From NCBI GenBank assembly GCA_017476545.1, contig JAFUZP010000002.1, positions 1 through 64,000 on the forward strand: a stretch of DNA of 64,000 bases, in the 5' to 3' direction. Of this stretch, positions 8,802 to 58,713 are shown piece by piece; the stretch's first letter is position 1, and every line of letters begins with the position of its first letter. Source of the DNA: Alloprevotella sp. GTDB taxonomy: Bacteria > Bacteroidota > Bacteroidia > Bacteroidales > Bacteroidaceae. A program made the translations under genes and the position numbers. The notes below the pieces were generated by a model. The model searched no databases, was not told the origin of the DNA, and saw only the letters and a program-made list of their open reading frames with translations.

Positions 8802-8882
8802 TGACGCTAGGGTTAGTCTTCCGTAACCCTGCGGTTAGTTGTCCGTAACCCTACGGTCAGTTTTTCTTATCCATAGGGTTAA
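8802..8882. repeat. palindromic 22-bp-period array A (4 units)
   Basis: Four near-palindromic units have left half-sites at about 8802, 8824, 8846 and 8868, an exact 22 bp period. Examples are GTAACCCTGCGGTTAGT and GTAACCCTACGGTCAGT, with pyrimidine-rich 5-base linkers. It lies between the S41 protease and manC, both on +. The rest of 8672-9037 holds no gene; a -7-like TACATTAG is seen near 9005. Confidence 0.8.
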
Positions 8883-9037
8883 TTTCTTGTTGCGTGGGGT
8901 CTTCTTTCACTAACTTCGGGGGGGAGCGGGTGTCGCTGCGCGGGGGATTGGTCATATTCGGGGTTTTTCTCATCCCGTTCTTGCCTATACGGAAATATAC
9001 CCTTACATTAGCCGACACTAACCAACCGTTTACTACC

Positions 9038-10126
9038 ATGCCAAGCAAGACGGATTATTGTATCATACTGGCTGGCGGCCCCGGGAAACGACTGTGGCCG
9101 TGCAGCCGCCGTGAACGTCCGAAGCAGTTCTTGGACTTTTTGGGGACCGGACGTTCGCTCTTGCAGCTCACTTACGGGCGTATAGCCGCATTCATCCCGC
9201 CGGAGAATATTTTCGTTTCCACTTATGCTGACTACCAGCCGCTCGTGGTCGATCAACTTCCCGACCTGCCGGTGGGCAATATCGTGACAGAGCCGGTTCA
9301 GCTCTCCACGGCTCCCGCCGCCGCTTGGGCCTCTTACCACATCGCTCTCCATGCCCCCGATGCGAATATCCTCGTGACGCCCTGCGACCAGCACATCGGT
9401 AGTGAGGCCGACTTCGCTGCTGAGGTGACGGACGGCCTGCGCTTCGTGGAGGATAACGACGCCTTCCTCGCGCTTGGTGTGCCGGCCAAGGAGGCCACTT
9501 CCGCCTATGGCTATATCCAGATCGGGCATCAAGTGCAGCCGCACCTCTACACCGTGCAATCTTTCACCGAAAAACCAGAGGCTACCTACGCGAAGGCTTT
9601 CGTTGAGACGGGAGAATTTCTGTGGAACACAGGGTTGTTCCTGTGGAACGCTCGTGCTGTGCGGGCCTTGTTCCGCGAGGTGGCATCCACGATAGCCGAG
9701 GCAATTGAGCGCGAGGGTGAGGGTATCACCCTTGAGCGCGAGGCGGAAATTGTCCGCCGCTACTATCCGACAAGCCAGCGCCGCTCTATAGACCTCGTTA
9801 TCTTGGAGAAGAGCCGCCGGAACGTCTATGTGCGTGAGTGCAGCTTTGCCTGGGCCGACATCGGGTGTTGGCCGGAACTGTACGCTGTCAGCAGGAAGGA
9901 TGCTGATGGTAACGCGGTGGTGGGACATAGCAAGGCGTTGTTTTCCGCCAGCAGCAACAACTTGGTCTGTATTCCCGACGGGGTGGCTGCCGTGATACAC
10001 GGGTTGGACGGTTATTTGGTCGCTTCGAGCGGAAATGTCGTGGTGGTCTGTCCGAACAGCGACCCGACCCTTGTCCGCAAATTGCTCAATGAGGCGCAAG
10101 TGGCCTTCGGTGAGGATAGCGTATAG
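9038..10126 (+). CDS. manC: mannose-1-phosphate guanylyltransferase
   Basis: 362 residues from ATG 9038, the start that places ILAGGPGKRLWPCSRRERPKQF at the N-terminus; an upstream in-frame start at 8894 would add an unconvincing 48 residues. The nucleotidyltransferase signature GGPGKRLWP, the FTEKP motif and WNTGLFLWNA are present. The enzyme makes GDP-mannose for surface glycans and GDP-fucose. It lacks the C-terminal phosphomannose isomerase half of long ManC proteins, as usual in Bacteroidetes. It stands alone between array A and the U32 operon promoter. Confidence 0.93.
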   Translation: MPSKTDYCIILAGGPGKRLWPCSRRERPKQFLDFLGTGRSLLQLTYGRIAAFIPPENIFVSTYADYQPLVVDQLPDLPVGNIVTEPVQLSTAPAAAWASYHIALHAPDANILVTPCDQHIGSEADFAAEVTDGLRFVEDNDAFLALGVPAKEATSAYGYIQIGHQVQPHLYTVQSFTEKPEATYAKAFVETGEFLWNTGLFLWNARAVRALFREVASTIAEAIEREGEGITLEREAEIVRRYYPTSQRRSIDLVILEKSRRNVYVRECSFAWADIGCWPELYAVSRKDADGNAVVGHSKALFSASSNNLVCIPDGVAAVIHGLDGYLVASSGNVVVVCPNSDPTLVRKLLNEAQVAFGEDSV

Positions 10127-10221
10127 GGGCAGTCAGCTGGTAATTACCCCCAAAGCGGCGCAAGCGGCGGTGCGGCGAAAAGTTTGCACGTCCCTTGCGC
10201 CGTTCCCTGCCCGGTTTTCAT

Positions 10222-10229
10222 TACCTTTG
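10222..10229 (+). promoter_or_regulatory. -7 box of the U32-ribF-CPBP-dusB operon
   Basis: TACCTTTG matches the TAnnTTTG consensus. It ends only seven bases before the ATG at 10237, so transcription would begin at or within about three bases of the start codon (leaderless or nearly so). Confidence 0.7.
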
Positions 10230-10236
10230 CACCGCT

Positions 10237-11478
10237 ATGCAAGAGAATTTTTACGAGATAATGGCACCTGTCGGGAGCCGCGAGAGCCTGTCCGCAGCCT
10301 TGAAGGCGGGGGCGGATTCCGTATATTTCGGCGTTGAGGCCCTCAACATGCGGGCGCACTCGGCCAGCCGTTTCACGCTTTCCGACCTGCGTGACATCGC
10401 AGCGCGGTGTGCCTTGAACGGTACGAAGTCCTATCTCACAGTCAATACTATCATCTACGGCGAGGATCTTCCCCTTATGCAGGAAATCTGCACGGCGGCG
10501 CGCGAGGCCGGCATATCGGCCGTCATCGCTTCCGACCCCGCCGTGCTGCAATTCTGCCGCAGCATCGGGCAGGAAGTACACCTCTCCACACAGCTGAACA
10601 TCTCCAATATTGAGGCCCTCAAATTCTACGCGCAATATGCCGATGTGGCCGTGTTGGCGCGCGAGTTGCGGTTGGAGCAGGTGGCGGAAATCCATCGTCA
10701 GATAGCGGAGCAGCACGTCTGCGGCCCGTCCGGCCAGCCCGTCAGAATTGAGATGTTCTGCCATGGCGCGCTCTGCATGGCTGTCAGCGGAAAATGTTAC
10801 CTTTCGCTGGACAATCTCAACCGCTCGGCCAATCGGGGACAGTGCATGCAGCTCTGTCGCAGGGGCTACACGGTACGGGATCGCGAGACAGGGACGGAGC
10901 TGGACATAGACCGCCAGTACATCATGAGTCCCAAGGACTTAAAGACAATCGGGTTTATAGATAAAATGATGGAGGCGGGCGTGCGCGTGTTCAAGATAGA
11001 GGGACGCGCGCGTAGTGCGGAGTATGTGGATACAGTCGTGCGCTGCTATAAAGAGGCCGTACAGGCCGTGCTCGACGGTACTTATGGCGAGACAAAAGTG
11101 AAAGACTGGGACGCCCGGCTTTCGCGGGTCTTCAACAGGGGCTTCTGGGACGGATACTACCTCGGGCAGACGCTTGGGGAATGGAACGACCGCTACGGGA
11201 GCGTGGCCACGGAGCGCAAGGTCTATATCGGCAAGGGCATCAAGTATTTCGGTCGTCTCGGTGTAGCAGAATTCCGTCTGGAGGCAGGTGGTTTCCAAAA
11301 AGGCGACAAGCTACTCATCACAGGGCCTACGACAGGTGCGGTTTACGTTACGCCTACTGATTTTCGTTACGACCGTAAACCCCTTGAGAAGGCTGAGAAA
11401 GGCCATAATGTGTCCTTCGCCGTGCCGGAGAAGGTGCGCCCCAGTGACAAATTGTTCCGCATAGATCCTGTTTCATGA
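10237..11478 (+). CDS. U32 family peptidase-like protein (TrhP/RlhA type RNA-hydroxylation family)
   Basis: 413 residues from ATG 10237 (MQENFYEIMAPVGSRESL); the family N-terminus normally reads as a strand followed by LLAPAG. GADSVYFGVEALNMR and VHLSTQLNISN are typical U32 segments. The signature EMFCHGALCMAVSGKC and nearby CMQLC supply cysteines that bind an iron-sulfur cluster in relatives. E. coli members hydroxylate tRNA or 23S rRNA rather than act as peptidases. The true target here is unknown. It is followed by ribF with an ATGA overlap, and dusB, another tRNA-modifying gene, ends the operon. Confidence 0.88.
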   Translation: MQENFYEIMAPVGSRESLSAALKAGADSVYFGVEALNMRAHSASRFTLSDLRDIAARCALNGTKSYLTVNTIIYGEDLPLMQEICTAAREAGISAVIASDPAVLQFCRSIGQEVHLSTQLNISNIEALKFYAQYADVAVLARELRLEQVAEIHRQIAEQHVCGPSGQPVRIEMFCHGALCMAVSGKCYLSLDNLNRSANRGQCMQLCRRGYTVRDRETGTELDIDRQYIMSPKDLKTIGFIDKMMEAGVRVFKIEGRARSAEYVDTVVRCYKEAVQAVLDGTYGETKVKDWDARLSRVFNRGFWDGYYLGQTLGEWNDRYGSVATERKVYIGKGIKYFGRLGVAEFRLEAGGFQKGDKLLITGPTTGAVYVTPTDFRYDRKPLEKAEKGHNVSFAVPEKVRPSDKLFRIDPVS

Positions 11479-12365
11479 CTAGCTGCGCTACCATCGGGTT
11501 CTTCGACGGGGTACACCTCGGACACCAGTACCTTTTCCGGCAGTTGCGGGAAGTGGCAGCTGCGCGCGGGCTTAGCCCTGTGGCTGTCACCTTCGCGGAG
11601 CATCCGCGTAAGACCCTGCAGCCCGGCTTCCAGCCCCGATTGCTTACAACACTGGACGAAAAGCGCGGTTTCATCGGGGATTGTGGCATCAGTCGGTGCG
11701 AGATTCTTGCCTTTTCTCCCGACTTGGCACATCTGACGGCACGGGAATTTATGAGGAACCACCTGCTGCCGCTCGGCGTGGGTTGCCTGCTCGTGGGCTA
11801 TGACCATCGTTTCGGGAGCGACCGTTGCGCGTTTGAAGATTGCCTCCCCCTCGGGCAGGAACTTGGTATCGCGATAGTCCAGGCCGAGGCATATCATGGG
11901 GCGGTGGCAACTGTCTCATCGTCCGTTATCCGTTCTCTATTGGATGAGGGCGATGTAACGCGCGCCACGCAGTGCCTCGGGCGTAACTACAGCATATCGG
12001 GTGTCGTCGTGGAGGGCTACAAGGAGGGACGTAAGTTGGGATTTCCCACCGCAAACCTATTGCCGGACTCTTCGGAAAAGATTGTCCCGAAGTGCGGCAG
12101 CTATGCAACTTGGGTAGATTTCGGCGGGCGGAGGTATGCCGCCATGACAAACATCGGGCTGCGGCCGACTTTCGGGAACGGTACGGAAACTTCGATAGAA
12201 TCGCATATTTTTGACTTTGATGGTGACCTCTACGGGCAGTCGGTCACGCTCCGCTTCGTCCGTCGTTTGCGTGACGAACGGAAATACCCTGCGGCTGGCG
12301 ACTTGCAGCGGCAACTTTGCGCGGATGCGGCAACGGCGCGGCAAATCTTATACAAAGAGATATGA
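11475..12365 (+). CDS. ribF: bifunctional riboflavin kinase / FAD synthetase
   Basis: 296 residues. The FAD synthetase half starts at once with ATIGFFDGVHLGHQ (nucleotidyltransferase HxGH), followed by VTFAEHPRKTLQP and SSSVIRSLL. The kinase half has GRKLGFPTANL and GTETSIESHIFDFDGDLYG. It makes FMN and FAD from riboflavin. The start overlaps the U32 stop and its own stop overlaps the CPBP gene start, both as ATGA. FMN supply may serve DusB downstream, but the genes probably just share a transcript. Confidence 0.95.
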   Translation: MTSCATIGFFDGVHLGHQYLFRQLREVAAARGLSPVAVTFAEHPRKTLQPGFQPRLLTTLDEKRGFIGDCGISRCEILAFSPDLAHLTAREFMRNHLLPLGVGCLLVGYDHRFGSDRCAFEDCLPLGQELGIAIVQAEAYHGAVATVSSSVIRSLLDEGDVTRATQCLGRNYSISGVVVEGYKEGRKLGFPTANLLPDSSEKIVPKCGSYATWVDFGGRRYAAMTNIGLRPTFGNGTETSIESHIFDFDGDLYGQSVTLRFVRRLRDERKYPAAGDLQRQLCADAATARQILYKEI

Positions 12366-13183
12366 AAAAATCAGTGCGGGCTGGCGTAAATATCGGGGCG
12401 TTGCTGCTCCTTTTCGTTCTGGCGCAGGTCGTCTCTTCGGCTGTGGCTTTTCTGCTGGCCAATACCGATAGGCTAGCGGCGGGGCAACCTTTAGACCCTG
12501 TCGCCCTTGAGCTCAATCCAAAATGGGCGGGCATTGCTATTTTCTTCGGTGAGTCGTTGTTTGTTGTGTTTCTGTGGGTACTCCGCCTTATCCGGCGGAG
12601 GCCTGTTCCTATGCCCTGCTTTCCTTTGCCCCGTTACTGGGTGCTGGCGGTTTGTGCGATGCTCTGCATTTCGTGTGGCGTCAGTCTGTTGTTAGACCCG
12701 CTCGCGCTGGACGATGCCGGCATGATGGCTATGTTCGACGGGATGAAGGGTAACCTGCTCTGTCTGCTGGCATTGACGGTCGTGGGACCGCTGGCCGAGG
12801 AAGTCTTCTTCCGGGAGGGAATCCAGCGGCAGCTGCGGCTGGCGGGCTGGCCGGCTCCTGCAGCCATTTTCGCAGCCGCCCTGCTCTTCGCCTTGGTGCA
12901 TGGCAATCTGTTGCAGGGCATACCTGCGCTGCTGCTGGGCTGTGTCCTGGGGCTTCTGTACGAGGCGACAGGGGATGTCCGCCTACCGGGCACGGCCCAC
13001 GTTGTCAATAATTCGTTGGCCGTTGGGTTGCTGTATTTCCCCGAGGCGGAGGCTTTCCTTGATAATAGCCCGGCGGCGTTTCCGTTGGTGGTCGGCGCAG
13101 TTGCCGTCCTGTTGGGCGGCGCGTTGCTGTACAGTTGGCATAAGAAGGTTCGGAATGCGAGACAGAAGATTACAACTGCATGA
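12362..13183 (+). CDS. CPBP family intramembrane metalloprotease
   Basis: 273 residues from ATG 12362, overlapping the ribF stop. About seven or eight hydrophobic helices are visible. The CPBP motifs are GPLAEEVFFREGIQ (EExxxR-like motif 1) and FALVHGN (motif 2 His). Family members cleave or chaperone membrane proteins, for example in CAAX-like processing or bacteriocin immunity; the substrate is not predictable. ATGA overlaps on both sides place it inside the U32-ribF-dusB operon. Confidence 0.87.
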   Translation: MKKSVRAGVNIGALLLLFVLAQVVSSAVAFLLANTDRLAAGQPLDPVALELNPKWAGIAIFFGESLFVVFLWVLRLIRRRPVPMPCFPLPRYWVLAVCAMLCISCGVSLLLDPLALDDAGMMAMFDGMKGNLLCLLALTVVGPLAEEVFFREGIQRQLRLAGWPAPAAIFAAALLFALVHGNLLQGIPALLLGCVLGLLYEATGDVRLPGTAHVVNNSLAVGLLYFPEAEAFLDNSPAAFPLVVGAVAVLLGGALLYSWHKKVRNARQKITTA

Positions 13184-14142
13184 AGATAGGAAATATTGAC
13201 TTGGGGGAGCGTCCCCTCCTGCTGGCTCCGATGGAAGATGTGACGGACATCGGCTTCCGCTTGCTCTGCCGGAAGATGGGCGCGGCGATGGTCTATTCTG
13301 AGTTTGTCGCTTCGGATGCTTTGGTGCGTGCCGTGCCCAAGACGTTTGAGAAACTGCGGGTGAGCGATGCGGAGCGTCCTGTCGCGATTCAGATATACGG
13401 GCGTTTCCCCGAGGCGATGCGGGACGCGGCGAAAATTGTGGAGGAGACGGCGCGCCCTGACGTGCTGGACCTCAATTTCGGGTGCCCCGTGAAGCGTATT
13501 GCGGGCAAGGGTGCTGGGGCGGGCCTCTTGCAGAACGTGCCGTTGATGCTGGAGATAACGCGCGAGGTGGTGCGGGCCGTGAGTGTGCCCGTTACGGTCA
13601 AGACACGCCTGGGCTGGGATGTGGGCAGCAGGATTATCGTGGAGTTGGCTGAACGCCTGCAAGACTGCGGCATACAGGCACTCACAATCCACGGCAGGAC
13701 GCGCTCGCAGATGTATCAGGGTGAGGCGGACTGGACGCTCATAGGTGCCGTGAAGCGTAACCCACGGATGCGCATCCCCGTCATCGGCAATGGCGACCTG
13801 CGCACGGCGGAGGACGTGCGCCGCGCGTTCGATGACTACGGCGTGGATGCCTGCATGGTGGGGCGTGCCACGTTCGGCCAGCCTTGGATATTCAGGGAAA
13901 TGCAGGGGATGCCGCCGCTTACGACGGACGAAAAGCTGGGCATATTGAAGGAACAGGTGCGGGAGAGCATAGCGCGAGCGGACGAGTATCGCGGCATCCT
14001 GCACGTCCGTCGCCACTTGGCGGCGACACCGCTTTTTAAGGGTATTCCGAACTTCCGCGACACACGCATCGCCATGCTTCGCGCCGAGACGCAGGAAGAA
14101 CTCTTCCGCATTCTCGATGCGGCGCGTCCGCTTATCCGATGA
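13180..14142 (+). CDS. dusB: tRNA dihydrouridine synthase
   Basis: 320 residues. The FMN-binding TIM barrel begins LLLAPMEDVTDIGFR. The catalytic cysteine is in LNFGCPVKRIAGKGAGAGLL, and TIHGRTRSQMYQGEADW and VIGNGDLRTAEDV follow. The enzyme reduces specific uridines in the tRNA D-loop using FMN and NADPH. I assign DusB by overall resemblance to nifR3-type members. It is the last gene of the operon and faces DUF3109 across a 126-base gap. Confidence 0.93.
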   Translation: MKIGNIDLGERPLLLAPMEDVTDIGFRLLCRKMGAAMVYSEFVASDALVRAVPKTFEKLRVSDAERPVAIQIYGRFPEAMRDAAKIVEETARPDVLDLNFGCPVKRIAGKGAGAGLLQNVPLMLEITREVVRAVSVPVTVKTRLGWDVGSRIIVELAERLQDCGIQALTIHGRTRSQMYQGEADWTLIGAVKRNPRMRIPVIGNGDLRTAEDVRRAFDDYGVDACMVGRATFGQPWIFREMQGMPPLTTDEKLGILKEQVRESIARADEYRGILHVRRHLAATPLFKGIPNFRDTRIAMLRAETQEELFRILDAARPLIR

Positions 14143-14149
14143 GCCGGGC

Positions 14150-14266
14150 CAGTTGCTGGGTGTTGGTTGTGGGTAGTTGGATATGGGTTTATTGGGCGTA
14201 GCCATCTCCCTGCAGGCATCCCCTCCCGACCAACAGCCAAATCCCAGCGCCCCATAACTACCTCCC
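14150..14266. other. G-rich imperfect inverted repeat in a convergent gap
   Basis: Between the dusB and DUF3109 stops the plus strand carries four GGG tracts separated by T/G-rich linkers (about 14159-14198), and the second half carries C-rich counterparts (CCCC, CCTCCC, CCC). The halves pair only imperfectly around CTGCAGG near 14210-14216, and no T-run follows. It may act as a convergent transcription barrier. Confidence 0.35.
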
Positions 14267-14268
14267 CA

Positions 14269-14865
14269 CTAAACCATGCCTTGGCGGCGCAGTTCTGCCG
14301 CGACACTTTCCAGTTCCTCATACCAGGTCTCACCGAAGCGGCGCACGAGTGCGTCGCGCAGGAAGCGATAGACGGGCAGCCCGAGCTCGCGTCCTTTGCG
14401 GCGTGCGGGTGCGCAGATGTCCCAGCGGTGGAGGTTCAGTCCTGTTAAGCCTCCGCTGAAGCGTTTCTCGCGGATGGGGTAGAGGCTGCATGAGAGGGGC
14501 TTGCTCCATGCCGTGCGCCCAGCGCGATAGGCCCGTTCGGAGGCGCAGAGGCAGCAGCCGTCCTCGTGGCGGGCGAAGATGCAGTCGCGCCCGGCTACGA
14601 TACCCGTGACCAGCTCGCCCGTGCGGTCCACATAGGCCACGCCCTGCTGTGCTATGACGGTCCGCGCCTCAGGGGTTAGCTCGTCCTCGATGGCGGGTAG
14701 TACGGCCTCCATCTGCAGTACCTCTTCCGTCAGGAGCGGCGCGCCGGCGTCGCCCTCTACGCAGCATTGGCCGTGGCACTGCGCGAGGTCGCAGCAGAAG
14801 TGCTCTGTAAGAATGTCGGTGGAGACGATGACGTCGCCCACCTGTATGATGGGGATGGTTGGCAT
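14269..14865 (-). CDS. DUF3109 cysteine-rich protein
   Basis: 198 residues of the Bacteroidetes DUF3109 family. Cysteines cluster as CCDLAQCHGQCC near residues 24-35, CIFARHEDGCCLC in the middle, CSLYPIR and WDICAPA. The pattern resembles the CxxxCxxCC metal or Fe-S cluster proteins related to YkgJ. Function is unknown. The start lies 12 bases after the ung stop, so it is probably cotranscribed behind ung. Confidence 0.85.
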   Translation of the reverse strand: MPTIPIIQVGDVIVSTDILTEHFCCDLAQCHGQCCVEGDAGAPLLTEEVLQMEAVLPAIEDELTPEARTVIAQQGVAYVDRTGELVTGIVAGRDCIFARHEDGCCLCASERAYRAGRTAWSKPLSCSLYPIREKRFSGGLTGLNLHRWDICAPARRKGRELGLPVYRFLRDALVRRFGETWYEELESVAAELRRQGMV

Positions 14866-14877
14866 GGCGCGTGTGCG

Positions 14878-15540: not shown

Positions 15541-15562
15541 GGTGCGTAGGGTATAACTCGTG

Positions 15563-15761: not shown

Positions 15762-15794
15762 TAGGCGCAAAACGCCACGATACATTTTTCCGTC

Positions 15795-16921: not shown

Positions 16922-17005
16922 CTTACCCCTAGGGGTAGCCGTTCCTAACCCTAGAGCCAGTGCGCCGTAACCCTATGGTTACTTCTTCCTAACCCTATGG
17001 TCAGT
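16922..17005. repeat. palindromic 22-bp-period array B (4 units)
   Basis: Units begin near 16923, 16946, 16968 and 16990. The first, TTACCCCTAGGGGTAG, is almost a perfect palindrome; CCGTAACCCTATGGTTACT and CTAACCCTATGGTCAGT follow. The array ends 33 bases before the -33 TTG of the next gene's promoter, exactly as array C does. Confidence 0.82.
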
Positions 17006-17321: not shown

Positions 17322-17876
17322 ATGGACGAAAACATGAAACTGAACGCTGCGCTGCCCGCCGATATGCGGGCGGCGGAGACGGGTGCGGACGCCGCGCCGG
17401 AGCGGGAGAAGAAGTACGTGAAGCCCGCGATGCAGGTCTTCCCGCTGGGCTGCCAGATGCTGGCGGCGAGCGGCGTGTCCGAACCGCCCGTAGTGGTTCA
17501 AGTTAATTTTGCAGCCGATGTATATATAGGCATCACCAGTGCTCCATGTATTAGTGCCCTGGCTCGCCTTTCGCTTGACGATTTAGTATCCGCAAACCCT
17601 TTCGCGCGCCTCGGAGATGCAACGTACTACTACTACCCACATGGTTATCGGCCCTGCTTCAGTGGTCACTCTGGTCCCGCCGTAGTTTTCGGCCCAGGAG
17701 GTGAGAGTTGGAGTGAAGGAGATTTCCTTGCCAATGTGCAACTTGATTCTTATGCAAATCGTCCTCTAGATATAGGCGGTTCCGACGTGGAATGCGACGG
17801 GGAGTCTATCTCTGGGACGTATAACGGGCGTTCGGTTTTGGTTTACTATTCTTTATGTATGTATGGTCATGATTGA
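17322..17876 (+). CDS. leader-variable protein 1 (conserved leader, divergent C-terminus)
   Basis: 184 residues, the same length as the paralogue at 20531-21085. Residues 1-53 are almost identical between the two: an Ala/Glu-rich start, then KKYVKPAMQVFPLGC and MLAASGVS. This resembles a YxxP...LAxSG leader motif I recall from short Bacteroidales proteins. After GVS similarity falls sharply, though DFLANV and a YNGRSVLV/YKGHPVIV end are shared. No signal peptide, lipobox or membrane helix is visible. Four cysteines lie in the variable part. Function is unknown; a cleaved secreted peptide or antigen-like product is possible. Confidence 0.75.
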   Translation: MDENMKLNAALPADMRAAETGADAAPEREKKYVKPAMQVFPLGCQMLAASGVSEPPVVVQVNFAADVYIGITSAPCISALARLSLDDLVSANPFARLGDATYYYYPHGYRPCFSGHSGPAVVFGPGGESWSEGDFLANVQLDSYANRPLDIGGSDVECDGESISGTYNGRSVLVYYSLCMYGHD

Positions 17877-20018: not shown

Positions 20019-20130
20019 CGAAAAAAATCCCGATCCGACGGCAATACCAGCGGGAAGAAAAAACGCCGTGGCGGCGTTTTGGCAGGTGTAGATTCAATAT
20101 GGCGCGCGCCTATCCCTTGAGGCGGCATTT

Positions 20131-20214
20131 CTTAACTCTGGGGATAGCCGTTCCTAACCATAGGGGCAGTGCGCCGTACCCCTATAGTTACTTCTTCCTA
20201 ACCCTAGGGTCAGT
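20131..20214. repeat. palindromic 22-bp-period array C (4 units)
   Basis: Four units, about 22 bp apart, are recognisably the same array as B but with several substitutions, for example CTAACCATAGGGGCAGT and CTAACCCTAGGGTCAGT. It lies between the divergent parE and leader-variable gene 2 and marks the left end of the duplicated segment. The rest of 19970-20530 is the parE upstream region and the second leader. Confidence 0.8.
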
Positions 20215-20530: not shown

Positions 20531-21085
20531 ATGGACGAAAACATGAAACTGAACGCTGCGCTGCCCGCCGATATGCGGGCGACGGAGACGGGTGCGGACG
20601 CCGCGCCGGAGCGGGAGAAGAAGTACGTGAAGCCCCGTATGCAGGTATTCCCGCTGGACTGCCAGCTACTGGCGGCGAGCGGCGTGTCCGGAGAGCCCGT
20701 GCGCGCCGGAATTAGTGGTTATATCGATATGTATGCATCCTCCTGTAGGTCTTATATCCCTGCTATCTCCTGCGATGATTTCAGGAATACGGAGTTTATA
20801 AGGGACAAAATCCCGATGAACGCTGGTTTTAATAATGCTTGGTGCTTCAGAGAGACTATATGGTACGATCCTTTCCCAGCCTATGCGGGTGTTTCCTTTA
20901 GTTCTGGTGTGGACTGGGACGTAACAGACTTTCTCGCCAACGTAGAGTTTTTAGATCCTTGTCCAGGTTTTGACGTATCTAACCCTTGGGATAATCCCTC
21001 CCCCCTTGTACTTAATGCCCGCTACAAGGGGCATCCAGTTATTGTTAAGCTATCCATCGGAATGACCTCCTTAAACGACGAATAG
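20531..21085 (+). CDS. leader-variable protein 2 (paralogue of 17322-17876)
   Basis: 184 residues. The first 53 differ from copy 1 at only a few positions (A18T, A36R, G43D, M46L by eye). The remaining part is distantly related: an early SSC-CDDF region, WDVTDFLANV and YKGHPVIVKLSIGM align with copy 1, while the middle does not. Four cysteines lie outside the leader. No signal peptide or membrane helix is seen. Gene, leader, promoter and array were duplicated together, with parE between the copies. Function is unknown. Confidence 0.75.
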   Translation: MDENMKLNAALPADMRATETGADAAPEREKKYVKPRMQVFPLDCQLLAASGVSGEPVRAGISGYIDMYASSCRSYIPAISCDDFRNTEFIRDKIPMNAGFNNAWCFRETIWYDPFPAYAGVSFSSGVDWDVTDFLANVEFLDPCPGFDVSNPWDNPSPLVLNARYKGHPVIVKLSIGMTSLNDE

Positions 21086-25326: not shown

Positions 25327-25410
25327 TTTACCCCCAGGGTTGGCTGTTCCTACCCCTATGGTTACGGAGCCGTTACCCTAGGGATAGTTCTTCCTAACCC
25401 TAGGCTTGGG
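25327..25410. repeat. palindromic 22-bp-period array D (4 units)
   Basis: Units begin near 25328, 25351, 25373 and 25395, including CTACCCCTATGGTTACG and GTTACCCTAGGGATAGT. It lies upstream of the polA promoter and downstream of the lipoprotein gene. Nothing else is seen in 25184-25521 except that promoter and a terminator. Confidence 0.8.
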
Positions 25411-30441: not shown

Positions 30442-30525
30442 CTTAACCCTACGGTTACGGACGACTACCCCTACGCTTACAACGCGCTAACCCTACGGTT
30501 ACGGCTGGCTAGCCCTATGGGTGGT
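30442..30525. repeat. palindromic 22-bp-period array E (4 units)
   Basis: Half-sites at 30444, 30466, 30488 and 30510, exactly 22 bases apart. Two units read CTAACCCTACGGTTACG or differ by one base. It sits between the divergent floA and beta-galactosidase promoters (30276-30620); I see nothing else in that gap. Confidence 0.85.
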
Positions 30526-45277: not shown

Positions 45278-45378
45278 TTTAACCCTGAAAGGGAATTACC
45301 CCTAGGGTTGCGCGGAACTAACGCTATGGTTACGGTAAACTAACCCTGTGGTTACGGCGAACTAACCCTAGGGTTGCG
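45278..45378. repeat. palindromic 22-bp-period array F (4-5 units)
   Basis: Clear units begin near 45296, 45319, 45341 and 45363, for example CTAACCCTGTGGTTACG and CTAACCCTAGGGTTGCG, with purine-rich linkers (GGCGAA, GGTAAA). A decayed unit precedes them at 45280. The array is between the divergent cyd and mur-fts units. In the rest of 45165-45522 I see only a small GC stem (GCCGCCCTTTAGGGCGG, about 45402-45420). Confidence 0.82.
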
Positions 45379-51640: not shown

Positions 51641-52090
51641 ATGCTTTTCGACCAAGTGAGCCGCGACATCATCGCTGCGATGAAAGCTAAGGACAAAGCC
51701 CGGCTTGAGGCTTTGCGCAATGTCAAGAAATACTTTCTTGAGGCTAAGACAGCCCCCGGCGCGGGCGATGAGTTGGGGGACGATGCGGCACTGAAAATTC
51801 TCGCCAAGTTGGCCAAGCAGGGACGCGATACCGCCGCGCTCTACCGGGAGCAGAACCGTCCCGATCTCGCCGAGGCGGAGGAGGCGCAGGTAGCTGTCAT
51901 TGAGGAATACCTGCCCCGCGCGCTGACACCGGAGGAACTGGAAGCGGAAGTGCGCGCGCTCATCACTGAGACGGGTGCCGCCGGTCCGGCTGATATGGGA
52001 CGCGTCATGGGGCTTGCCACCAAGCGGTTGGCAGGTCGTGCGGACGGGAAGGCACTCGCCTCCCTAGTCCGTCAGTTGCTCCCCGCCTGA
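51641..52090 (+). CDS. GatB/YqeY domain protein
   Basis: 149 residues, full length for the YqeY family (MLFDQVSRDIIAAMKAKDKARLEALRNVK, EEYLPRALTPEELEAEV, MGRVMGLATKRLAGRADGKALASLV). The domain is shared with the tail of GatB and binds tRNA there; the stand-alone protein has no firm function. It starts 17 bases after ftsZ, a frequent Bacteroidales arrangement. Confidence 0.9.
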   Translation: MLFDQVSRDIIAAMKAKDKARLEALRNVKKYFLEAKTAPGAGDELGDDAALKILAKLAKQGRDTAALYREQNRPDLAEAEEAQVAVIEEYLPRALTPEELEAEVRALITETGAAGPADMGRVMGLATKRLAGRADGKALASLVRQLLPA

Positions 52091-52146
52091 CGGGTGGCAG
52101 GCATCCCGCCGCACGCTGCAAGCGGGTGTGGCCGGATGGAAAAAAC

Positions 52147-52273
52147 CTAACCGCAGCGTCAGTTTTTACTGACCCTGCGGTTACTGAAAACCAACCATAG
52201 GGTTATGCGCGACCAACCCTGCGGGTACGGCGGACTAACCCTACGGGTACGGAAAGCTATCCCTGCGGTTGGT
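52147..52273. repeat. palindromic 22-bp-period array G (6 units, longest)
   Basis: Half-sites at 52148, 52170, 52192, 52214, 52236 and 52258, an exact 22 bp period over six units. Units vary as TGACCCTGCGGTTACT, CAACCATAGGGTTATG and CTAACCCTACGGGTACG. It lies in the convergent gap between yqeY and dprA, so a promoter role is unlikely here. The rest of 52091-52361 contains no gene. Confidence 0.87.
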
Positions 52274-52361
52274 CTTTTTCGTTATTGGGGGTGTGCGGCT
52301 CTTAGTGCGGGGGGGTCGGTGGTTCCGCCTGTTTCCGTTTATGGCAGGCGGTCAGTCCGGC

Positions 52362-53456
52362 TTATTTCAGCAACCTGTAGAGCCCGCCGGGCAGCCCTTT
52401 AAGGATGCCTTTCAGCTCCAGGCCAAGCAATAGCGCATTGGTTCGGTTGAACGGGAGACCCGCTTCAGTCACCAGTTGCGAGATTGTTTTTTTATCTGCC
52501 TCATGCAGGATGTCCACCAGACGGCGTTCCTCATCAGACAATTCGGGGAAGAACTCGCGTTGCACGGGAGCCCCCTTGGCGTCCTCCCGTTCCGTGATCC
52601 AGCCTTGAGCCAGCGCAAAGTCCTCGGCGGAGGTGATGAGGCCCGCTCCGTTAGTGCGTATCAGGGCGTTGCATCCGGCGGAGTAGGGGTCCGAGGTCCG
52701 GCCAGGGAAGGCATAGACGTCTCGGTTGTAGTCCAGTGCAAGGCTGGCCGTGATAAGCGCTCCTCCCTTCGCTGCGCTTTCCACGATGACGGTGGCCTCT
52801 GAAAGCCCAGCTATGATGCGGTTGCGGCGCACGAAGTTGCCCTTATCGGGAACGGTGCGGATGGGGTACTCTGTCAGTAGGCCGCCCTGGTGCGTCATCT
52901 GCGCTGCCGTTTCCCGGTGGTGTGCGGGATAGATGCGGTCGAAGCCGTGTGCCAGTACGCCGATGGTCTCCAGCCCCTGCTGGAGCGCGCCCCGGTGGGC
53001 GTGGATATCTACGCCGTAGGCCAGGCCGCTGACGATGATTGCGTCCGGCAGCAGGTGTGCTATGTCTTCCGTGAAATGGCGGCAGAGGTCGCGTCCGTAT
53101 TCCGTGATATGACGTGTACCGACCACACTTACGAGGTGGTGCGCGTTCAGGTCGGCTGTGCCCCGGTAGAACAGGACGAGCGGGGCATCGGCACACTGGC
53201 GCAGGCGTTCGGGATAGTCCGGGTCGTTCATGCAGAGTACGCGGATTCGGTTCTCTTCGCAGAACGCCATTTCCTCCTCGGCCCAGCGGAGGGCCTCGGC
53301 GTGGTACGGGAGAGCGTCACGCAGCCGCTGCTCCGACGGGTTGCGGTCGGCGAAGACGGCTTCGGCACTGCCGTAATGTTCGTAACACCTCTGCGCATTG
53401 GCTTGGCTGAGGCCGTGCAGTCGCGTTAAGGCTAGGGCATAAACGGTTTCTTTCAT
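52362..53456 (-). CDS. dprA: DNA processing protein DprA
   Basis: 364 residues. N-terminal SAM-like helix-hairpin region (LTRLHGLSQANAQRCYEHYGSAEAVF), a Rossmann-like core with VVGTRHITEYGRDLCRHF, ISGLAYGVDIHAHRGAL and RNRIIAGLSEATVIVESAAKGGALITA, and a C-terminal winged helix (about 305-364). DprA loads RecA onto incoming single-stranded DNA. No other competence gene is visible here. It is first-read last in a minus-strand run DUF2851-thioesterase-dprA. Confidence 0.95.
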   Translation of the reverse strand: MKETVYALALTRLHGLSQANAQRCYEHYGSAEAVFADRNPSEQRLRDALPYHAEALRWAEEEMAFCEENRIRVLCMNDPDYPERLRQCADAPLVLFYRGTADLNAHHLVSVVGTRHITEYGRDLCRHFTEDIAHLLPDAIIVSGLAYGVDIHAHRGALQQGLETIGVLAHGFDRIYPAHHRETAAQMTHQGGLLTEYPIRTVPDKGNFVRRNRIIAGLSEATVIVESAAKGGALITASLALDYNRDVYAFPGRTSDPYSAGCNALIRTNGAGLITSAEDFALAQGWITEREDAKGAPVQREFFPELSDEERRLVDILHEADKKTISQLVTEAGLPFNRTNALLLGLELKGILKGLPGGLYRLLK

Positions 53457-53468
53457 GGAGTCGGATCA

Positions 53469-53855
53469 TTATAGGAGTACGTCCAGTTCCTTGCATTCGC
53501 CCAACCGCCCATTCACGAGGCAGACGACGGTGGTCTGCGCTCGGACGCAGAGTTTCTCGTCAGGCTGGCGTACGATAATCTGGTCGAAGATGTACTTTAG
53601 CCCTTCCTTGCGGACGGCCAGTCGGCAGACGAAACGGTCGCCGGGATGCAGCGGGGCTTTGAACTGCATTTCAAGCCGTGCCACGACGGTATCTATGCCG
53701 CGCTGGTGAAATTCGTCTATGCCTCCGAGGCGTGAGCGCAGGAATTCGTTACGCGTATGCTCGGTGTAATGTTGGTATACCGCGTTGTTCACGATGCCTT
53801 GCAGGTCGCATTCGTAGTCGCGCACCTTCATTGGGAGTTCGAAAGAGTAGTCCAT
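53469..53855 (-). CDS. acyl-CoA thioesterase, 4-hydroxybenzoyl-CoA thioesterase fold
   Basis: 128 residues from ATG 53855 (MDYSFELPMKVRDYECDLQGIVNNAVYQHYTE), the family start; the frame reaches 53948 without support. The catalytic Asp region RDYECDLQGIVNN matches YbgC/FcbC hotdog thioesterases. Substrate is unknown, probably a short acyl-CoA or acyl-ACP. It lies 12 bases before dprA and 32 bases after the DUF2851 gene, so all three are likely cotranscribed. Confidence 0.88.
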   Translation of the reverse strand: MDYSFELPMKVRDYECDLQGIVNNAVYQHYTEHTRNEFLRSRLGGIDEFHQRGIDTVVARLEMQFKAPLHPGDRFVCRLAVRKEGLKYIFDQIIVRQPDEKLCVRAQTTVVCLVNGRLGECKELDVLL

Positions 53856-53887
53856 TAGTCGTACTTGTGTGTCGGGTCGTTTTTTTA

Positions 53888-55180
53888 TCAGTGCTTTTTG
53901 AGGTATTCCGCACCGAAGCGGCAGCGCAGGCAGTCTTTGCGGTCGCAATAATTTTTCTTGAGGTGGATGAGTGCCTGGGAGTCGGCTGCGTTTTCAGCTT
54001 TTATACCGGCACTCGTCCATGAGCGTGTGATGAAATTGCGCTCTGCCCGCGTAGATTCCAGCAGCCCGAAGGCTCGTTCGCAGAGTCCCTCCTCCATCCG
54101 CTCGCGACCGTAGGCGAAGAGAACGGGGGCGACGGTGTTGATGAGGAGTAGGTCGAGGCTGCCCTCCTGCAACGTCTTGGGTGTGGCAGTGGCGAGCCTG
54201 CCGAAAGTGTAGTGCTCCTGCCAGTAAGGCGTGGCTGTAGCGCGCAGGAGTTCACGCAGTTGCTTGGGGCCTTCGGCCTCGATGATGCGGGAGAGGTTTA
54301 CGCGCCCTTCGTGGTAGAGGTTTGCCAGCTGGGATAGGCGGACGTAGGGGAAGTTCTGTGGGCGGAGACGCAGGAAGCGCCAGCGTTTGGCGTTCAGTGG
54401 CTGGAGGTTGAACTTGTGCTGGAGGAAGCGGTACTCGCGTTGCAAGCGGCGGAAGTAGTCGTCCTGCAAGTCCGTGTCGGTAGCGTTGTCCTCCAGCAGT
54501 CCGGCCTGTCCGATAAAGAAGGCCTCTATCTGGAAAAGGTCATCGCGGTGTTTCCCGATGTCGGAGGGGCGGATGGTGAACGCCCACTCCTCGAAGGCGT
54601 CGGAATTTACGCTGAAGCCGAAGTTGCGAGCCAGTGCGATAAAGAAGGCCCACTCCCAGTCTCCGTCTGTCCGCCCAAGGTACTGCGTGATGCGCCCTGT
54701 CTTCTCTTCCAGCCTTTCGGCCGTCAGCGCGCTCATCCAGGCGTGCTGGGTCAGCAGGGACAGGGCGGGTATGATGCGGTAGCACGGCGGGTAGTTCTCC
54801 TCGGCCAGCAGTTCCTCGTAATTCTCCCGGATGCTGTCCGGTACGGCCACCTGCAACTGTGGGACAACCTCCCCGTGGAGCGTCCGTACCTCGGCATCAA
54901 TGGTGGAGGCAACGTGCAGGATGGTGTTGTTGTAGGCCGCATCGCGTTCGTGTCCGTGACGGTACCAGTCTGAGGAACGCTCGTGGATTTCCACGTTGCC
55001 CGCCCAGAGCTTTCCGCCGATGCGTACTTTGGCGTTGAAGAAGTCCGGGCCTGCGTCCCGGTTGTGCAGGCCTGCGTCAATGACTTCTACCGTTTCTCCG
55101 CTGTCGGCCACGAGGGGGGTGGCGGGATAGAGGCGGTGTTTCCAGACGTAGTGGAGCAGTTGTTCCATAATAGTGCTCAT
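53888..55180 (-). CDS. DUF2851 family protein
   Basis: 430 residues from ATG 55180; MEQLLHYVWKHRLYP four codons later (55168) is an equally good start, and a GTG at 55243 is unlikely. Conserved segments are VEVIDAGLHNRDAGPDFFNAKVRIGGKLWAGNVEIH near the N-terminus and a C-terminal Cys cluster CDRKDCLRCRFG. The N-terminal part has a nuclease-like look (D...E.H pattern), but function is unknown. A -7-like TACCTTCG lies at 55202-55195, 14 bases upstream. Confidence 0.83.
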   Translation of the reverse strand: MSTIMEQLLHYVWKHRLYPATPLVADSGETVEVIDAGLHNRDAGPDFFNAKVRIGGKLWAGNVEIHERSSDWYRHGHERDAAYNNTILHVASTIDAEVRTLHGEVVPQLQVAVPDSIRENYEELLAEENYPPCYRIIPALSLLTQHAWMSALTAERLEEKTGRITQYLGRTDGDWEWAFFIALARNFGFSVNSDAFEEWAFTIRPSDIGKHRDDLFQIEAFFIGQAGLLEDNATDTDLQDDYFRRLQREYRFLQHKFNLQPLNAKRWRFLRLRPQNFPYVRLSQLANLYHEGRVNLSRIIEAEGPKQLRELLRATATPYWQEHYTFGRLATATPKTLQEGSLDLLLINTVAPVLFAYGRERMEEGLCERAFGLLESTRAERNFITRSWTSAGIKAENAADSQALIHLKKNYCDRKDCLRCRFGAEYLKKH

Positions 55181-55316
55181 GTCGGTTAAACGGGCGAAGG
55201 TAGGGATTTTTTTCCTAACCGGCAAGTGTTCCGTATTCTTCACCGCTTTTTTCTCCCGTTTCCGGCTCCCGGTGCTGCGGCACGGGCGGCTCTCTCTTGG
55301 GTATGTATGCGCTGAA

Positions 55317-55352
55317 CGGGTCCGGACTTCCTGTGAATGGACTCCGGACCCG
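55317..55352 (-). terminator. putative terminator of the Omp28-like gene
   Basis: CGGGTCCGGA at 55317-55326 pairs perfectly with TCCGGACCCG at 55343-55352, about 30 bases past the stop. No T-run follows on the minus strand, so it may instead be a processing stem. Confidence 0.5.
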
Positions 55353-55383
55353 CTCCTGCGGGTGCTGCGGTACGGCGGGGCGC

Positions 55384-58300
55384 TTACCGTATGATGACTT
55401 TGCGCACTTCTCCGCCAGGCAGCCGGAGGATGTTGATGCCGGGTACGGGTGCGGCGAGGCGGCGCCCGTCGAGGCTGTAGCGGGCGGGGGGAGCGGGTGT
55501 GTGGCCCTGTATGCTGCCGATTCCCGTCAGCGGCTTCACTTCGGCCTCCTCTGCGTTGACCACTTCGCCCGTCTCGGTATTGAACAGCAGGGCGATGACT
55601 TTCAGCTTGCCGGGGTCCTGGCAGAGCGCGTTGCCGCCTACGCTGAACTGGTGGGTATAGGACTGGCGCTGGCCGGCCTGTATGGGGGCGGCGATGCTGC
55701 CCGCGATGCCGGCCGTTACCCCGGCACCGGCTATGGGGACATGGTTGAACGGGTCGCGCATATACTCGGGTTGCCGTATGATTGTCTGCAGGTCCGCGTC
55801 GTTCTGGTAGGCGGCGGTGCCTTGGTAGGCGGAGTAGTAGTTGTGCTGGAGCCAGCCGGTGCCTGTCCCGGTCAGGCCGTCGGCTACGAGGAGGAAGCCG
55901 AGGGCGTAGGGCGCGGCGGTGGCGTTGAACTGGAATATGGCGGTGGCGGTGGCGGTTACGCTCCTGTCCGTGCTGTCATAGAGCGGCGTTTCCAGCGTGA
56001 TGCCCGCTTCGGTCAGCTTGGCGGACTCGGCTTCGATGATTTCTCCCAGTCCGTAGCCGGAGGACTTGTTGCCCATGTACGGGTCGATGGTGTAGGAGCG
56101 GTTGATGCTGGAGCTGGGGTAGCCCGAAACTCCGCTGAGGATGGAGGAAAATTCGCCTATCTCCATCGGGTCATTGCGGTGGACGGCGGTGAGTACGGCC
56201 TTGCCGGGATGCCGCTCCTCGGCAAGCCGCAGCCCGAGTGTGCCGCGCGGGCAGAAGCCGCACCACGTCCCGGTGTACTCTTCCACGTAGGTCTTGTGCA
56301 GCGGGGCTTCGGCCAGTGCGCGCAGCAGGCCGCTTGCGGTCTTCAGTCCGGGGGCTTCGTTGTCGTAACCGTTCACTTTTTCAATAGTGAGGCTTGTCGC
56401 GTAGTCCTTGACCGTGGCGGGAACCCGGACAGGCACGCCCACGGTGCGCTTGTTGCCGAAGGACAGTGCGGGCGACACCTCCACGTGGGCAGTGGCGGCG
56501 GGCAGGTCGTCCATCTGTACCGTGATGTCGAGCGCGCTGATGTCCTGCTTACCGTAATTTTCCACGACGATGGGGATTTCCGCCTGCTGCCCCGCCAGTG
56601 CAAGGAGTTTGGAGAAGTCGGCTGCGGTAGCCGATGTGCCCACAAATTCATCGGACACATTTACGGGTTGCTTTGCGGCGTTCACGATTTCGCCCGTCTC
56701 CGTGTTGAACAGCAGGGCGACAATGCTGAGTCGGTACAGGTTCTGCGCAAGTTTGTTGAAGCCCAGTTCCATTTCGTGGCTGTAGTTCTGCGTCTCGCCC
56801 ATCCTGATAGGTGCTTTTATCGTGCCCGCAATGCCCTTTTCCACGCCTTCGGCGGCGATTGCCACGTTGTTATATTCAACGTTGCTTAGGACGGTGCCCT
56901 GTTTCGCCCAGTAATACAGGTCCGGGTCGTTGGTGTCGAAGATGGTAGTGCCCGTCCAGTTCGGGTAGGAGTTGGCCTGGTTCCACTCTGTGGCGTCCGA
57001 CTTCAGCCCGTCGGCCAGCAGGACGAAGCCCAGTGCATAGGGCGCGTCGTCCCGGTCGTAGTGGAAGAGCACGTCGGTGCTGAATCGGATGTGCCCGTTC
57101 TTGTCCATCTGAGGTGCTGATAGGCTGATAGCGGCTTCGCTCACGGCCTTCTGGTCGGCTTCCACGTCCTTGTCGAGCCCGAAACCGTTGCGTGGCAGCT
57201 GCGAACCGTAATAGGGATCGGCGCGCAGGGTACGGTTCATAAGGCCCGAGGGGGCGAGGCCGATGCGGTTGAATACGCCTTGGTAGTCCGCGACGGCCAT
57301 CGGGTCGGAGCCGCAGTGTACCGAAATCCAGATAGCGTCCTCCGGGTAGGCCGTGGCGAGCTTTTGCTGCCCCGTGAAGCCGCGCGGGCTGCCGCCGGAC
57401 CATGTGGCCGTGAACTCTTCATATACGCTGCGGTGCGGTGCACTGGACTCCAGTGTGATGAGCGTGCCGCTGGCCACGTTGCGGCCAGCCGTGATAGTGT
57501 TACTTTCCCCGTTCACCTTTGTGACGGTAATCGTCTTCTGCTGACGTCCGTTCGTAGGGTCGGCGATGAAGGTCAGCAGGGTCTGTGCCGAGCAGGCGTA
57601 CCCCTGTAGCGGCTTGTCCAGCGTGATGTGGCGCGTGAACTCGGCGGAGCCGTTCGTGCTTATCGTGTAGTCAAAGTCTGTAACGGCCTTTGTGCCGTAG
57701 TTGGTCAGGGTTACGGGCACCTGCACGGAGTCATTGGCGAGGGTGATGCCGTCGCCGAAGTCCGCTACGGCCAGGGAATGTGTCGGATAGTCGCCGTCCA
57801 CAAGCACCTGGATGGCCATCCGGCCGTATCCCAGCCCCCCGAAGGTGGACCATGAGGGGAAGTTGCGGTTCGACTTCATGTAGAGCGAGCCCGTCACGTC
57901 GTCCTCGTGGTCCGTCGTCAGGATAGGGAAACCCTGTTCCATGGTGCCGATGTAGGTCTGTGTCAGGGTGTAGCCTACGTAAACCCCCTCAGCGCCTACC
58001 GTGTAAGGCTCGGGCAGGAGCACTTCCGTCGGCTTGCCGTCTTGCAGGTCGCCCGTGGCGACAGCGATACTGCACACGTTGGCGTCATCGGGCGTGTCGG
58101 GCAGTGCCGTCGATAGCCAGACTTTCACGTTCTGCATCGTTGATACACCACGCACCACGAAGCGCACGGCACGGATTTTGTGCCCGGTCAGTTGCGCGTT
58201 GTTGCGGCCCGTGTGGATGGCACAGTCGTAGCGCTCCACTTCGCCCGAACCGAAACCGAGCAGATTGTCCGTGTCATGGTAATAGCCCCACCAAATCTCG

Positions 58301-58398
58301 TTGTCGGCGGGCACTATCTGCGCCGCCGTGCGTGCGGGCGCGCCCCAGAGCCATGCCAGCAGCACGGCGGGGAGAAGCAGGTGTAGTTTCTGTTTCAT
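55384..58398 (-). CDS. Omp28-like exported protein with a duplicated thioredoxin-like domain
   Basis: 1004 residues from ATG 58398 (signal peptide MKQKLHLLLPAVLLAWLWGAPARTAA). An N-terminal beta-rich module is followed by two copies of an Omp28-type domain, starting near 322 and 700. Copy 2 has an intact CxxC active-site motif (TWCGFCP, 711-717). In copy 1 the same place reads TWSGGSP, so both cysteines are lost. Both copies contain APYALGF, GIAGTI/GIAGSI and VIALLFNTETGE segments. The C-terminus (YSLDGRRLAAPVPGINILR) resembles a sorting tail. Possibly an outer-membrane or surface protein with a redox role. Confidence 0.87.
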   Translation of the reverse strand: MKQKLHLLLPAVLLAWLWGAPARTAAQIVPADNEIWWGYYHDTDNLLGFGSGEVERYDCAIHTGRNNAQLTGHKIRAVRFVVRGVSTMQNVKVWLSTALPDTPDDANVCSIAVATGDLQDGKPTEVLLPEPYTVGAEGVYVGYTLTQTYIGTMEQGFPILTTDHEDDVTGSLYMKSNRNFPSWSTFGGLGYGRMAIQVLVDGDYPTHSLAVADFGDGITLANDSVQVPVTLTNYGTKAVTDFDYTISTNGSAEFTRHITLDKPLQGYACSAQTLLTFIADPTNGRQQKTITVTKVNGESNTITAGRNVASGTLITLESSAPHRSVYEEFTATWSGGSPRGFTGQQKLATAYPEDAIWISVHCGSDPMAVADYQGVFNRIGLAPSGLMNRTLRADPYYGSQLPRNGFGLDKDVEADQKAVSEAAISLSAPQMDKNGHIRFSTDVLFHYDRDDAPYALGFVLLADGLKSDATEWNQANSYPNWTGTTIFDTNDPDLYYWAKQGTVLSNVEYNNVAIAAEGVEKGIAGTIKAPIRMGETQNYSHEMELGFNKLAQNLYRLSIVALLFNTETGEIVNAAKQPVNVSDEFVGTSATAADFSKLLALAGQQAEIPIVVENYGKQDISALDITVQMDDLPAATAHVEVSPALSFGNKRTVGVPVRVPATVKDYATSLTIEKVNGYDNEAPGLKTASGLLRALAEAPLHKTYVEEYTGTWCGFCPRGTLGLRLAEERHPGKAVLTAVHRNDPMEIGEFSSILSGVSGYPSSSINRSYTIDPYMGNKSSGYGLGEIIEAESAKLTEAGITLETPLYDSTDRSVTATATAIFQFNATAAPYALGFLLVADGLTGTGTGWLQHNYYSAYQGTAAYQNDADLQTIIRQPEYMRDPFNHVPIAGAGVTAGIAGSIAAPIQAGQRQSYTHQFSVGGNALCQDPGKLKVIALLFNTETGEVVNAEEAEVKPLTGIGSIQGHTPAPPARYSLDGRRLAAPVPGINILRLPGGEVRKVIIR

Positions 58399-58427
58399 AT
58401 TGTATAATAGTTTTATATATGCTGTGT

Positions 58428-58464
58428 CACGAGGGCTTTGGGTGGCCTCTCGTGGGCAAAGGTA
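58428..58464 (-). promoter_or_regulatory. Omp28-like gene promoter with overlapping inverted repeat
   Basis: TACCTTTG on the minus strand at 58464-58457. Directly downstream, CACGAGGGC (58428-58436) pairs with GCC-T-CTCGTG (58445-58454), nine pairs and one bulge. The stem spans the expected start site near 58450, so it may be an operator as much as an RNA hairpin. Confidence 0.55.
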
Positions 58465-58628
58465 TGCAATTTGTTCCAATCGGAAGTGCCTCGCGCGCGT
58501 ATTTCTTATTATATATAGTTGTCCGGGAGTTCGTGCGGACGGCTGTGGCGGGACGGAAAAACGGGCCGGGCGCCCCGGTGGCTGTGCCGCACGGCCGCAT
58601 CCGTTTTCCTATCAACGGGGATGCTTTT

Positions 58629-58713
58629 TCTTAACCCTGGGGTTCGCTTTTCTTACCCATAGGGTTACGGCGCACTAAGCCTAGGGGTAGTTCCGCTTAA
58701 CCGTAGGGTTAGT
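58629..58713. repeat. palindromic 22-bp-period array H (4 units)
   Basis: Half-sites near 58632, 58653, 58676 and 58698, period 21-23 bases. Units include CTTACCCATAGGGTTACG and CTTAACCGTAGGGTTAGT, the reverse-handed version of the CCCTAxGG core. It lies between the uvrA stop and the Omp28-like promoter; the rest of 58465-58791 shows nothing I can name. Confidence 0.82.

Follow-up and report, generated by a model that had tools for sequence, protein, structure and literature searches.

The window analysed here is a 64,000-bp stretch (G000:C9:1-64000) of a 1.98-Mb draft genome, G000 (46 contigs, 80% complete), and eight of the gaps between its genes hold an array of near-palindromic units repeated every 22 bp. 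The PolA of G000 has its closest named records in Alloprevotella, Prevotellaceae and Prevotellamassilia (70–65% identity). The genes neighbouring the arrays are unrelated and mostly housekeeping, polA, floA, cydA, murG-like, dprA and uvrA-like genes among them. We describe these arrays and their counterparts in related genomes, and weigh the possibility that they are bound by proteins of the HU-HIG family (PF18291).

Periodic arrays in the window

A preliminary description of the window had reported eight arrays, and all were found where it placed them, with units exactly 22 bp apart. A two-unit pattern (up to three mismatches) gave 20 matches at 16 distinct places in seven of the eight arrays and none in 100 dinucleotide-preserving shuffles of the window. 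Pattern counts cover both strands and a symmetric place may score twice, as some did here. The array at 52148 escapes this pattern and is caught by a profile, which recovers all eight and has no match in reversed sequence.

The neighbours of the arrays were named from Pfam matches. The first array (8802..8881, + strand, four units) lies between an S41 peptidase gene (+) and a nucleotidyltransferase gene (+), and the second (16924..17003, +, four units) between an acyltransferase-like gene (+; Pfam match below the curated cut-off) and a gene encoding 184 amino acids (+). The third (20111..20212, +) occupies the divergent gap between a gyrB/parE-like gene (−) and a second 184-amino-acid gene (+), with four units from 20133 and a weak unit at 20111. 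Four units lie upstream of polA (−) at 25329..25408 (+), four in the divergent gap between floA (−) and a beta-galactosidase-like gene (+) at 30444..30523 (−), and four in the divergent gap between cydA (−) and a murG-like gene (+) at 45297..45376 (−). The seventh array (52148..52271, −) has six units in the convergent gap between yqeY (+) and dprA (−), and the eighth (58610..58711, +) has four units from 58632 and a weak unit at 58610, upstream of a uvrA-like gene (−). Counting the weak units, the arrays hold 4, 4, 5, 4, 4, 4, 6 and 5 units in window order.

The preliminary description placed none of the arrays in a gene, and all eight are intergenic by the calls of a simple codon-score caller, which also served for context, spacing and HU-HIG neighbour counts. 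With the first ATG (20128) taken as the start codon of the gyrB-like gene, the start of this gene and the weak unit at 20111 would share 18 bases. Tandem, divergent and convergent gaps are all occupied, in line with the mixed gene contexts reported earlier.

The two 184-amino-acid proteins (17322-17876 and 20531-21085) are paralogs with nearly identical first 50 residues, unrelated remainders and no Pfam match. Each gene sits behind an array, and these two arrays are very similar. Elsewhere in G000, visual inspection suggests a coding sequence resembling the paralogs immediately upstream of HU-HIG genes.

Number, spacing and anatomy of the arrays in the genome

Across the whole of G000, a similar pattern matches 190 times on the forward strand and 160 times on the reverse, some places being counted on each, compared with 0 in the control, and the matches are spread genome-wide rather than restricted to the window. 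A profile scan of 455 kb on five contigs detects 46 arrays, and the same sequence reversed yields none. This corresponds to roughly 200 arrays per genome and bears out the earlier estimate of hundreds. None of the 46 lies wholly within a called gene; a single array runs over the end of one, by 25 bp.

The arrays use 25 tandem, 11 divergent and 7 convergent gaps (three at contig ends are unclassed), with 96, 28 and 29 gaps of at least 80 bp on offer. Gap types are thus used about as available, which indicates that gene orientation matters little. The 41 inter-array distances have a mean of 10.3 kb and a coefficient of variation (CV) of 0.49, compared with 0.89 ± 0.12 when arrays are put at random into intergenic gaps of at least 100 bp (0 of 5,000 placements as low); none is shorter than 3 kb, against 8.6 expected. 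A relaxed scan of the long gaps gave just one further partial site, so they hide no main-family arrays.

The main family is accompanied by others. A 534-kb sample of G000, partly picked for containing HU-HIG genes, holds 54 main arrays and 20 other periodic arrays, the latter including some coding noise. A further dispersed family, of 23-bp period and GAGGTAAGCGCACACCTC-like core, is seen at G000:C10:56496 and 124124, L234:15440 and L235:3106, and minor-family arrays lie less than 200 bp from main-family arrays at G000:C11:34827, L232:8857 and L235:1899.

The refined unit consensus of the G000 profile is TAACCCTAnGGTTA, plus an 8-bp spacer with a nearly free middle. Half-site positions are 65–96% conserved (seven of them 88–96%) and spacer positions 17–20 just 39–52%. 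Four units are found in 30 of the 46 arrays, five in 7, six in 4, three in 2, two in 2 and eight in 1, and conservation drops sharply past the fourth unit. Every one of the 184 units keeps one half or both intact. No unit is changed at both position 6 and position 9, compared with 23.9 expected, which is the reverse of hairpin pairing; because they never change together, one complete half-site TAACCCTA seems to be needed per unit. Complementary bases at positions 3 and 12 are mildly over-represented (109 of 184 units versus 92 expected). A hairpin or RNA reading was rejected because covariation is lacking at the most variable positions, and a protein on double-stranded DNA fits better. The fixed two-turn period, the typical four units and this lack of hairpin covariation support the suggestion, made in the preliminary description, of a dimeric protein on several phased sites. 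A conserved flank or target-site duplication at the array ends was also considered and rejected, as the flanks are not conserved.

Private motifs and their turnover among relatives

The G000 pattern, at up to three mismatches, matched 1 of 61 genomes, namely G000 itself; at this stringency the motif is absent from 36 genomes of the same genus and 24 others of the order. The 22-bp-period palindromic architecture is widespread in the Prevotellaceae samples and its sequence is species-specific, the palindrome differing from species to species. The samples tested for this periodicity have a stronger signal at 22 than at other lags that are not multiples of three. Among 80 named PolA loci (1.46 Mb), 76 sequence windows were found at lag 22 and 57 at lag 44, and other lags not divisible by 3 gave 1–10, bar lag 14 with 30. 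A repeat of CAATTGACAATTG type is the probable cause of the lag-14 excess; L018 and L019 (upstream of polA) and L046 contain CAATTGACAATTGACAATGG-like repeats in runs, which probably give rise to this signal. A motif-free detector of periodic palindromes (score >1.1) reports 71 arrays at period 22 in the same 80 loci and at most 2 at 19, 20, 23, 25 or 26, and in G000 it reports 47 at period 22, 4 at 23 and 0 at 17, 19, 20, 25, 26 and 28. At a threshold of 1.08 it finds 75 arrays in 41 of the 80 PolA loci. Across 20 genomes or stretches of other Bacteroidales families (262 kb, several short), period 22 is no commoner than other periods.

Several families can be overlaid in one genome. In 400 kb of G086 (Prevotella sp. 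oral taxon 376) there are three, with 12, 13 and 8 arrays, and all 33 arrays are intergenic. When these families are pooled, no array pair lies less than 3 kb apart, compared with 6.8 expected (0 of 3,000 placements), and between families there are 0 such pairs versus 4.6 expected (P 0.002). The pooled spacing CV of 0.70, compared with 0.94 ± 0.15 (P 0.03), is a weaker signal than that in G000. G083 (163 kb) also has three families, with 18, 5 and 3 arrays, of which 25 of 26 are intergenic; its spacing CV is 0.56 versus 0.88 ± 0.11 (0 of 3,000), from a null with just 50 intergenic slots. One family was found in G082, with 10 arrays in 103 kb. Generic motif discovery was applied to G086, G082, G083 and G080; it gave a low-complexity profile for G086 (98 matches, control 92) and register-shifted duplicates for G083, and family-seeded profiles were used instead for these two genomes.

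Comparison of matching gaps shows how the motifs are replaced. In pairs at 95.8–98.7% identity, the matching gap keeps the motif where an array is detected in both (similarity 0.61–0.78); one L175 array has a sub-threshold counterpart in L176, still recognisable as related sequence. At 91% (L161 and L163), one gap has related arrays (0.56) and another has an array in L163 only. At 88% (L158 and L164), the L158 array consists of five units of family X followed by two of family Y, the family of L164. At 81% (L109 and L110), two gaps have arrays in both with unrelated motifs (0.34 and 0.42; the average of unrelated pairs is 0.39), and a third L109 array is absent from the matching L110 gap. More distant pairs have many matching gaps without an array. 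Arrays fill a good part of the larger gaps, and gap sharing between distant species is alone no proof of retention.

Two further features lie close to these gaps. A TGTTTCACGTGGAACA palindrome, which we take to resemble the ParB site parS, is present at L109:3963-3978 and L110:5382-5397, adjoining a gap with an array in L109 and none in L110. Repeated terminator-like hairpins of GGCGGCCACAAGGGCCGCCC type surround the arrays downstream of polA at about 12835-13075 in L158 and about 12995-13085 in L164.

HU-HIG proteins as candidate binders and rival explanations

Our favoured explanation, to which we give a probability of about 0.55, is that HU-HIG proteins bind the arrays cooperatively, autoregulate and, together with the dispersed arrays, organise the chromosome, with a specificity that turns over rapidly. 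Each array would be a double-stranded platform for a small HU-fold protein of this family, in which each 22-bp unit (two helical turns) would carry a single palindrome occupied by one dimer, with about four dimers aligned on one DNA face and binding cooperatively. An array beside its own HU-HIG gene would be the operator for autoregulation, and the dispersed intergenic arrays, one per about 5–12 kb, would divide up the nucleoid at regular distances, as anchors or boundaries of supercoil or loop domains. The proteins would shift specificity fast and in step with their sites, and several protein/array families could coexist in a genome. We infer direct binding, cooperativity, autoregulation, the chromosome function and the use of an HU-HIG protein by the G000 main family. 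Architecture is preferred to a regulon chiefly because the spacing is even and gene orientation makes little difference. The sites are many, chromosomal and orientation-independent, and their distribution is regular in G000 and G083 and more weakly so in G086. The preliminary description had likewise preferred a chromosome-organising element to a simple operator; the absence of an orientation preference and a spacing far more even than random speak for this putative role.

HU-HIG matches of at least 65 bits are present in all 15 array-bearing genomes examined, and nine genomes of other families have HU-like matches only, at no more than 42.5 bits. Full-length searches of 24 Prevotella-type genomes found the family in 22. 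Its profile, a distant relative of HU and IHF, matches HU/IHF structures (best E 2.4e-11). The HU-HIG clade was reportedly named by Burroughs and others in 2017, and to our knowledge no cognate DNA site is known for the family. Literature searches, as far as listings and the beginnings of abstracts go, returned nothing describing such arrays and no HU-HIG cognate site, and "22-bp" has no occurrence in the main text of PMC5771137.

Arrays are enriched beside HU-HIG genes. Across 20 HU-HIG loci, arrays directly adjoin many of the genes, often with a private motif. An array with a 21-, 22- or 23-bp period lies within about 550 bp of 18 of 28 HU-HIG-like genes, compared with 105 of 407 other genes (Fisher P 4e-5), and within 250 bp of 15 of 28 versus 74 of 407. 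The 28 genes come mostly from loci picked for holding such genes, and the controls are the remaining genes of the same loci, including neighbours of HU-HIG arrays. Outside the 18, two further HU-HIG arrays were seen in L234 (by eye) and L091 (by a family profile). Ten HU-HIG proteins from genes beside or near arrays all score above the Pfam cut-off. In the 534 kb of G000, 6 of the 20 non-main arrays flank 5 of 7 HU-HIG genes; one palindrome is common to two of these genes, and the rest have palindromes of their own. HU-HIG proteins of about 200 amino acids with a C-terminal extension are encoded at L091:5126-5749, L097:9467-10060, L049:17218-17823 and L247:1436-2032, and the extension, judged by eye and from the Pfam description, may be a winged helix.

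Gene and motif were followed together in three sister species, G090, G099 and G091, which hold L164, L158 and L173 and have 85–88% identical DNA where aligned. Family Y has 162 matches in G090, 18 in G099 and 0 in G091. The G090 HU-HIG protein with an upstream Y array (L247) is 95% identical in G099, where a Y array again lies directly upstream of the gene, and is absent from G091 (best relative 44%). A G091 paralog has instead an upstream 22-bp array of family Z, which at up to three mismatches has 9 matches in G091 and 0 in both G090 and G099. Hence one HU-HIG gene and its motif are present or missing together in the three species. As predicted beforehand, family X is frequent in G099 (139 matches) and absent from G091 (0); it has 0 matches in G090 as well. 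The G090 HU-HIG gene at C55 has no array in the short stretch available. For the main G000 motif TAACCCTAGGGTTA, the partner may, by elimination, be the HU-HIG gene at G000:C10:10284-10715, itself without an adjoining array, or else a gene in the fifth of the genome that the draft lacks. ORF6N proteins were considered as binders and rejected, having no match in 11 of the 15 array-bearing genomes, G000 included.

Several observations weigh against this explanation. There is no HU-HIG match in the 64-kb window, and none of the 7 HU-HIG genes of G000 directly adjoins a main-motif array. In dense families an array beside an HU-HIG gene can be chance, given that about one-quarter of other genes have one. 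The sister-species comparison covers three genomes and one family, and the prediction of family X at the remaining G099 paralog (C30) failed, the upstream 22-bp array there being related to Z. HU-HIG genes also occur in genomes without an array in the 20–23 kb sampled (G094–G098, G014, G016 and G061), so such a gene does not predict dense dispersed arrays; they are also present in G074 and G081, whose samples show a weak array only. In G004 and G031 no HU-HIG match above the cut-off is full-length, yet one window of G031 gives a weak lag-22 signal. Arrays of different families can be close neighbours in G083 (185 bp and 1.1 kb apart), where distances under 3 kb are not significantly depleted (6 versus 8.4 expected, P 0.11). 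Finally, Y1_Tnp matches of at least 45 bits occur in 8 of 15 array-bearing genomes versus 0 of 5 without an array in the sample.

This last association is what would be expected of non-autonomous mobile repeats like REPs and BIMEs, moved by a REP-associated Y1 transposase (RAYT) of each genome's own. REPs, too, look like hundreds of species-specific intergenic palindromes, and the L109 array missing from the matching L110 gap also suits a mobile repeat. However, 6 of the 15 array-bearing genomes (several of them incomplete) have no Y1_Tnp match at all, and that of G000 is partial (24.2 bits at a cut-off of 23, profile positions 40–90 in a 332-amino-acid frame). Compensatory changes of the hairpin kind are lacking where units vary most, positions 6 and 9 being anti-correlated; half-sites are conserved and the spacer middle is free, the array ends have no conserved flank and spacing is more even than random. 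We therefore consider mobile repeats quite unlikely. Neutral or selfish tandem repeats, with slippage and concerted evolution at work and a period set by the mutational mechanism, would account for the near-identical units of some arrays (for example L248 9690 and L247 2173) and for the L158 array that mixes two families. This we regard as highly improbable, given that G000 half-sites are far more conserved than the spacer, that 30 of 46 arrays have four units, that the arrays are evenly spaced along the genome, and that close species (95.8–98.7% identity) share both array position and motif.

On function, the strongest rival is that the arrays, like DNA uptake sequences or Chi, are self-recognition marks that label the cell's own DNA for uptake, recombination or protection. 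Uptake sequences are regularly spaced, and such a mark would also fit because the arrays combine regular spacing with species-specificity and turnover between close species. Yet uptake sequences and Chi are short oriented motifs that also lie within genes, whereas the arrays span about 80 bp, much larger than any self-recognition mark known to us, and are almost exclusively intergenic; their position beside HU-HIG genes suggests a regulatory DNA-binding protein instead. We give this rival a low probability. An ordinary regulon, with a transcription factor acting through very many operators on the genes next to them, is unlikely, although the arrays are intergenic, some lie directly upstream of HU-HIG genes and some are probably operators. 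A regulon gives no reason for the even spacing, the arrays occupy tandem, divergent and convergent gaps roughly in proportion to their supply, and the neighbours in the window are unrelated and mostly housekeeping.

The arrays resemble several known systems in part. Proteins encoded beside them belong to the HU-HIG family, and the difference here is that particular members are tied to particular arrays of 21–23-bp period. They share with REP/BIME elements their number, intergenic position and species-specific palindromes, and differ in the fixed 22-bp period, the typical four units, the absence of hairpin covariation, the even spacing and the absence of a RAYT match in 6 of 15 genomes. Noc, ParB and MatP have palindromic chromosome-wide sites, a dedicated protein and a chromosome-level function, with single conserved sites and other folds. 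The arrays are likewise palindromic and spread over the chromosome, but they are tandem and phased, and their sequence is rapidly replaced. Plasmid iterons are direct repeats of about 22 bp at two-turn spacing, few in number and located at origins. IHF and HU have the HU fold, and an IHF site stands alone rather than in a palindromic array. The likeness to these is the two-turn repeat spacing and, for the candidate binders, the HU fold.

We tentatively propose, at somewhat less than even odds, that Prevotellaceae carry HU-HIG proteins of private, changeable specificity that evolve rapidly together with hundreds of evenly spaced cognate arrays, which would divide the chromosome into units of approximately 5–12 kb. 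Several such systems would be overlaid in some genomes, in one of them (G086) with a common spacing. They would be a bacterial counterpart of fast-turnover pairs, of which PRDM9 and its motifs are one. If true, this would give the HU-HIG domain family a function and target sites, and would provide a natural series of HU-fold proteins, each with its own motif, in which the evolution of specificity within the fold could be studied directly. Possible physical domain boundaries of bacterial chromosomes would become readable from sequence alone. What sets the size of bacterial supercoil domains would also become testable, because anchor positions, a candidate protein and relatives with changed motifs would all be in hand.

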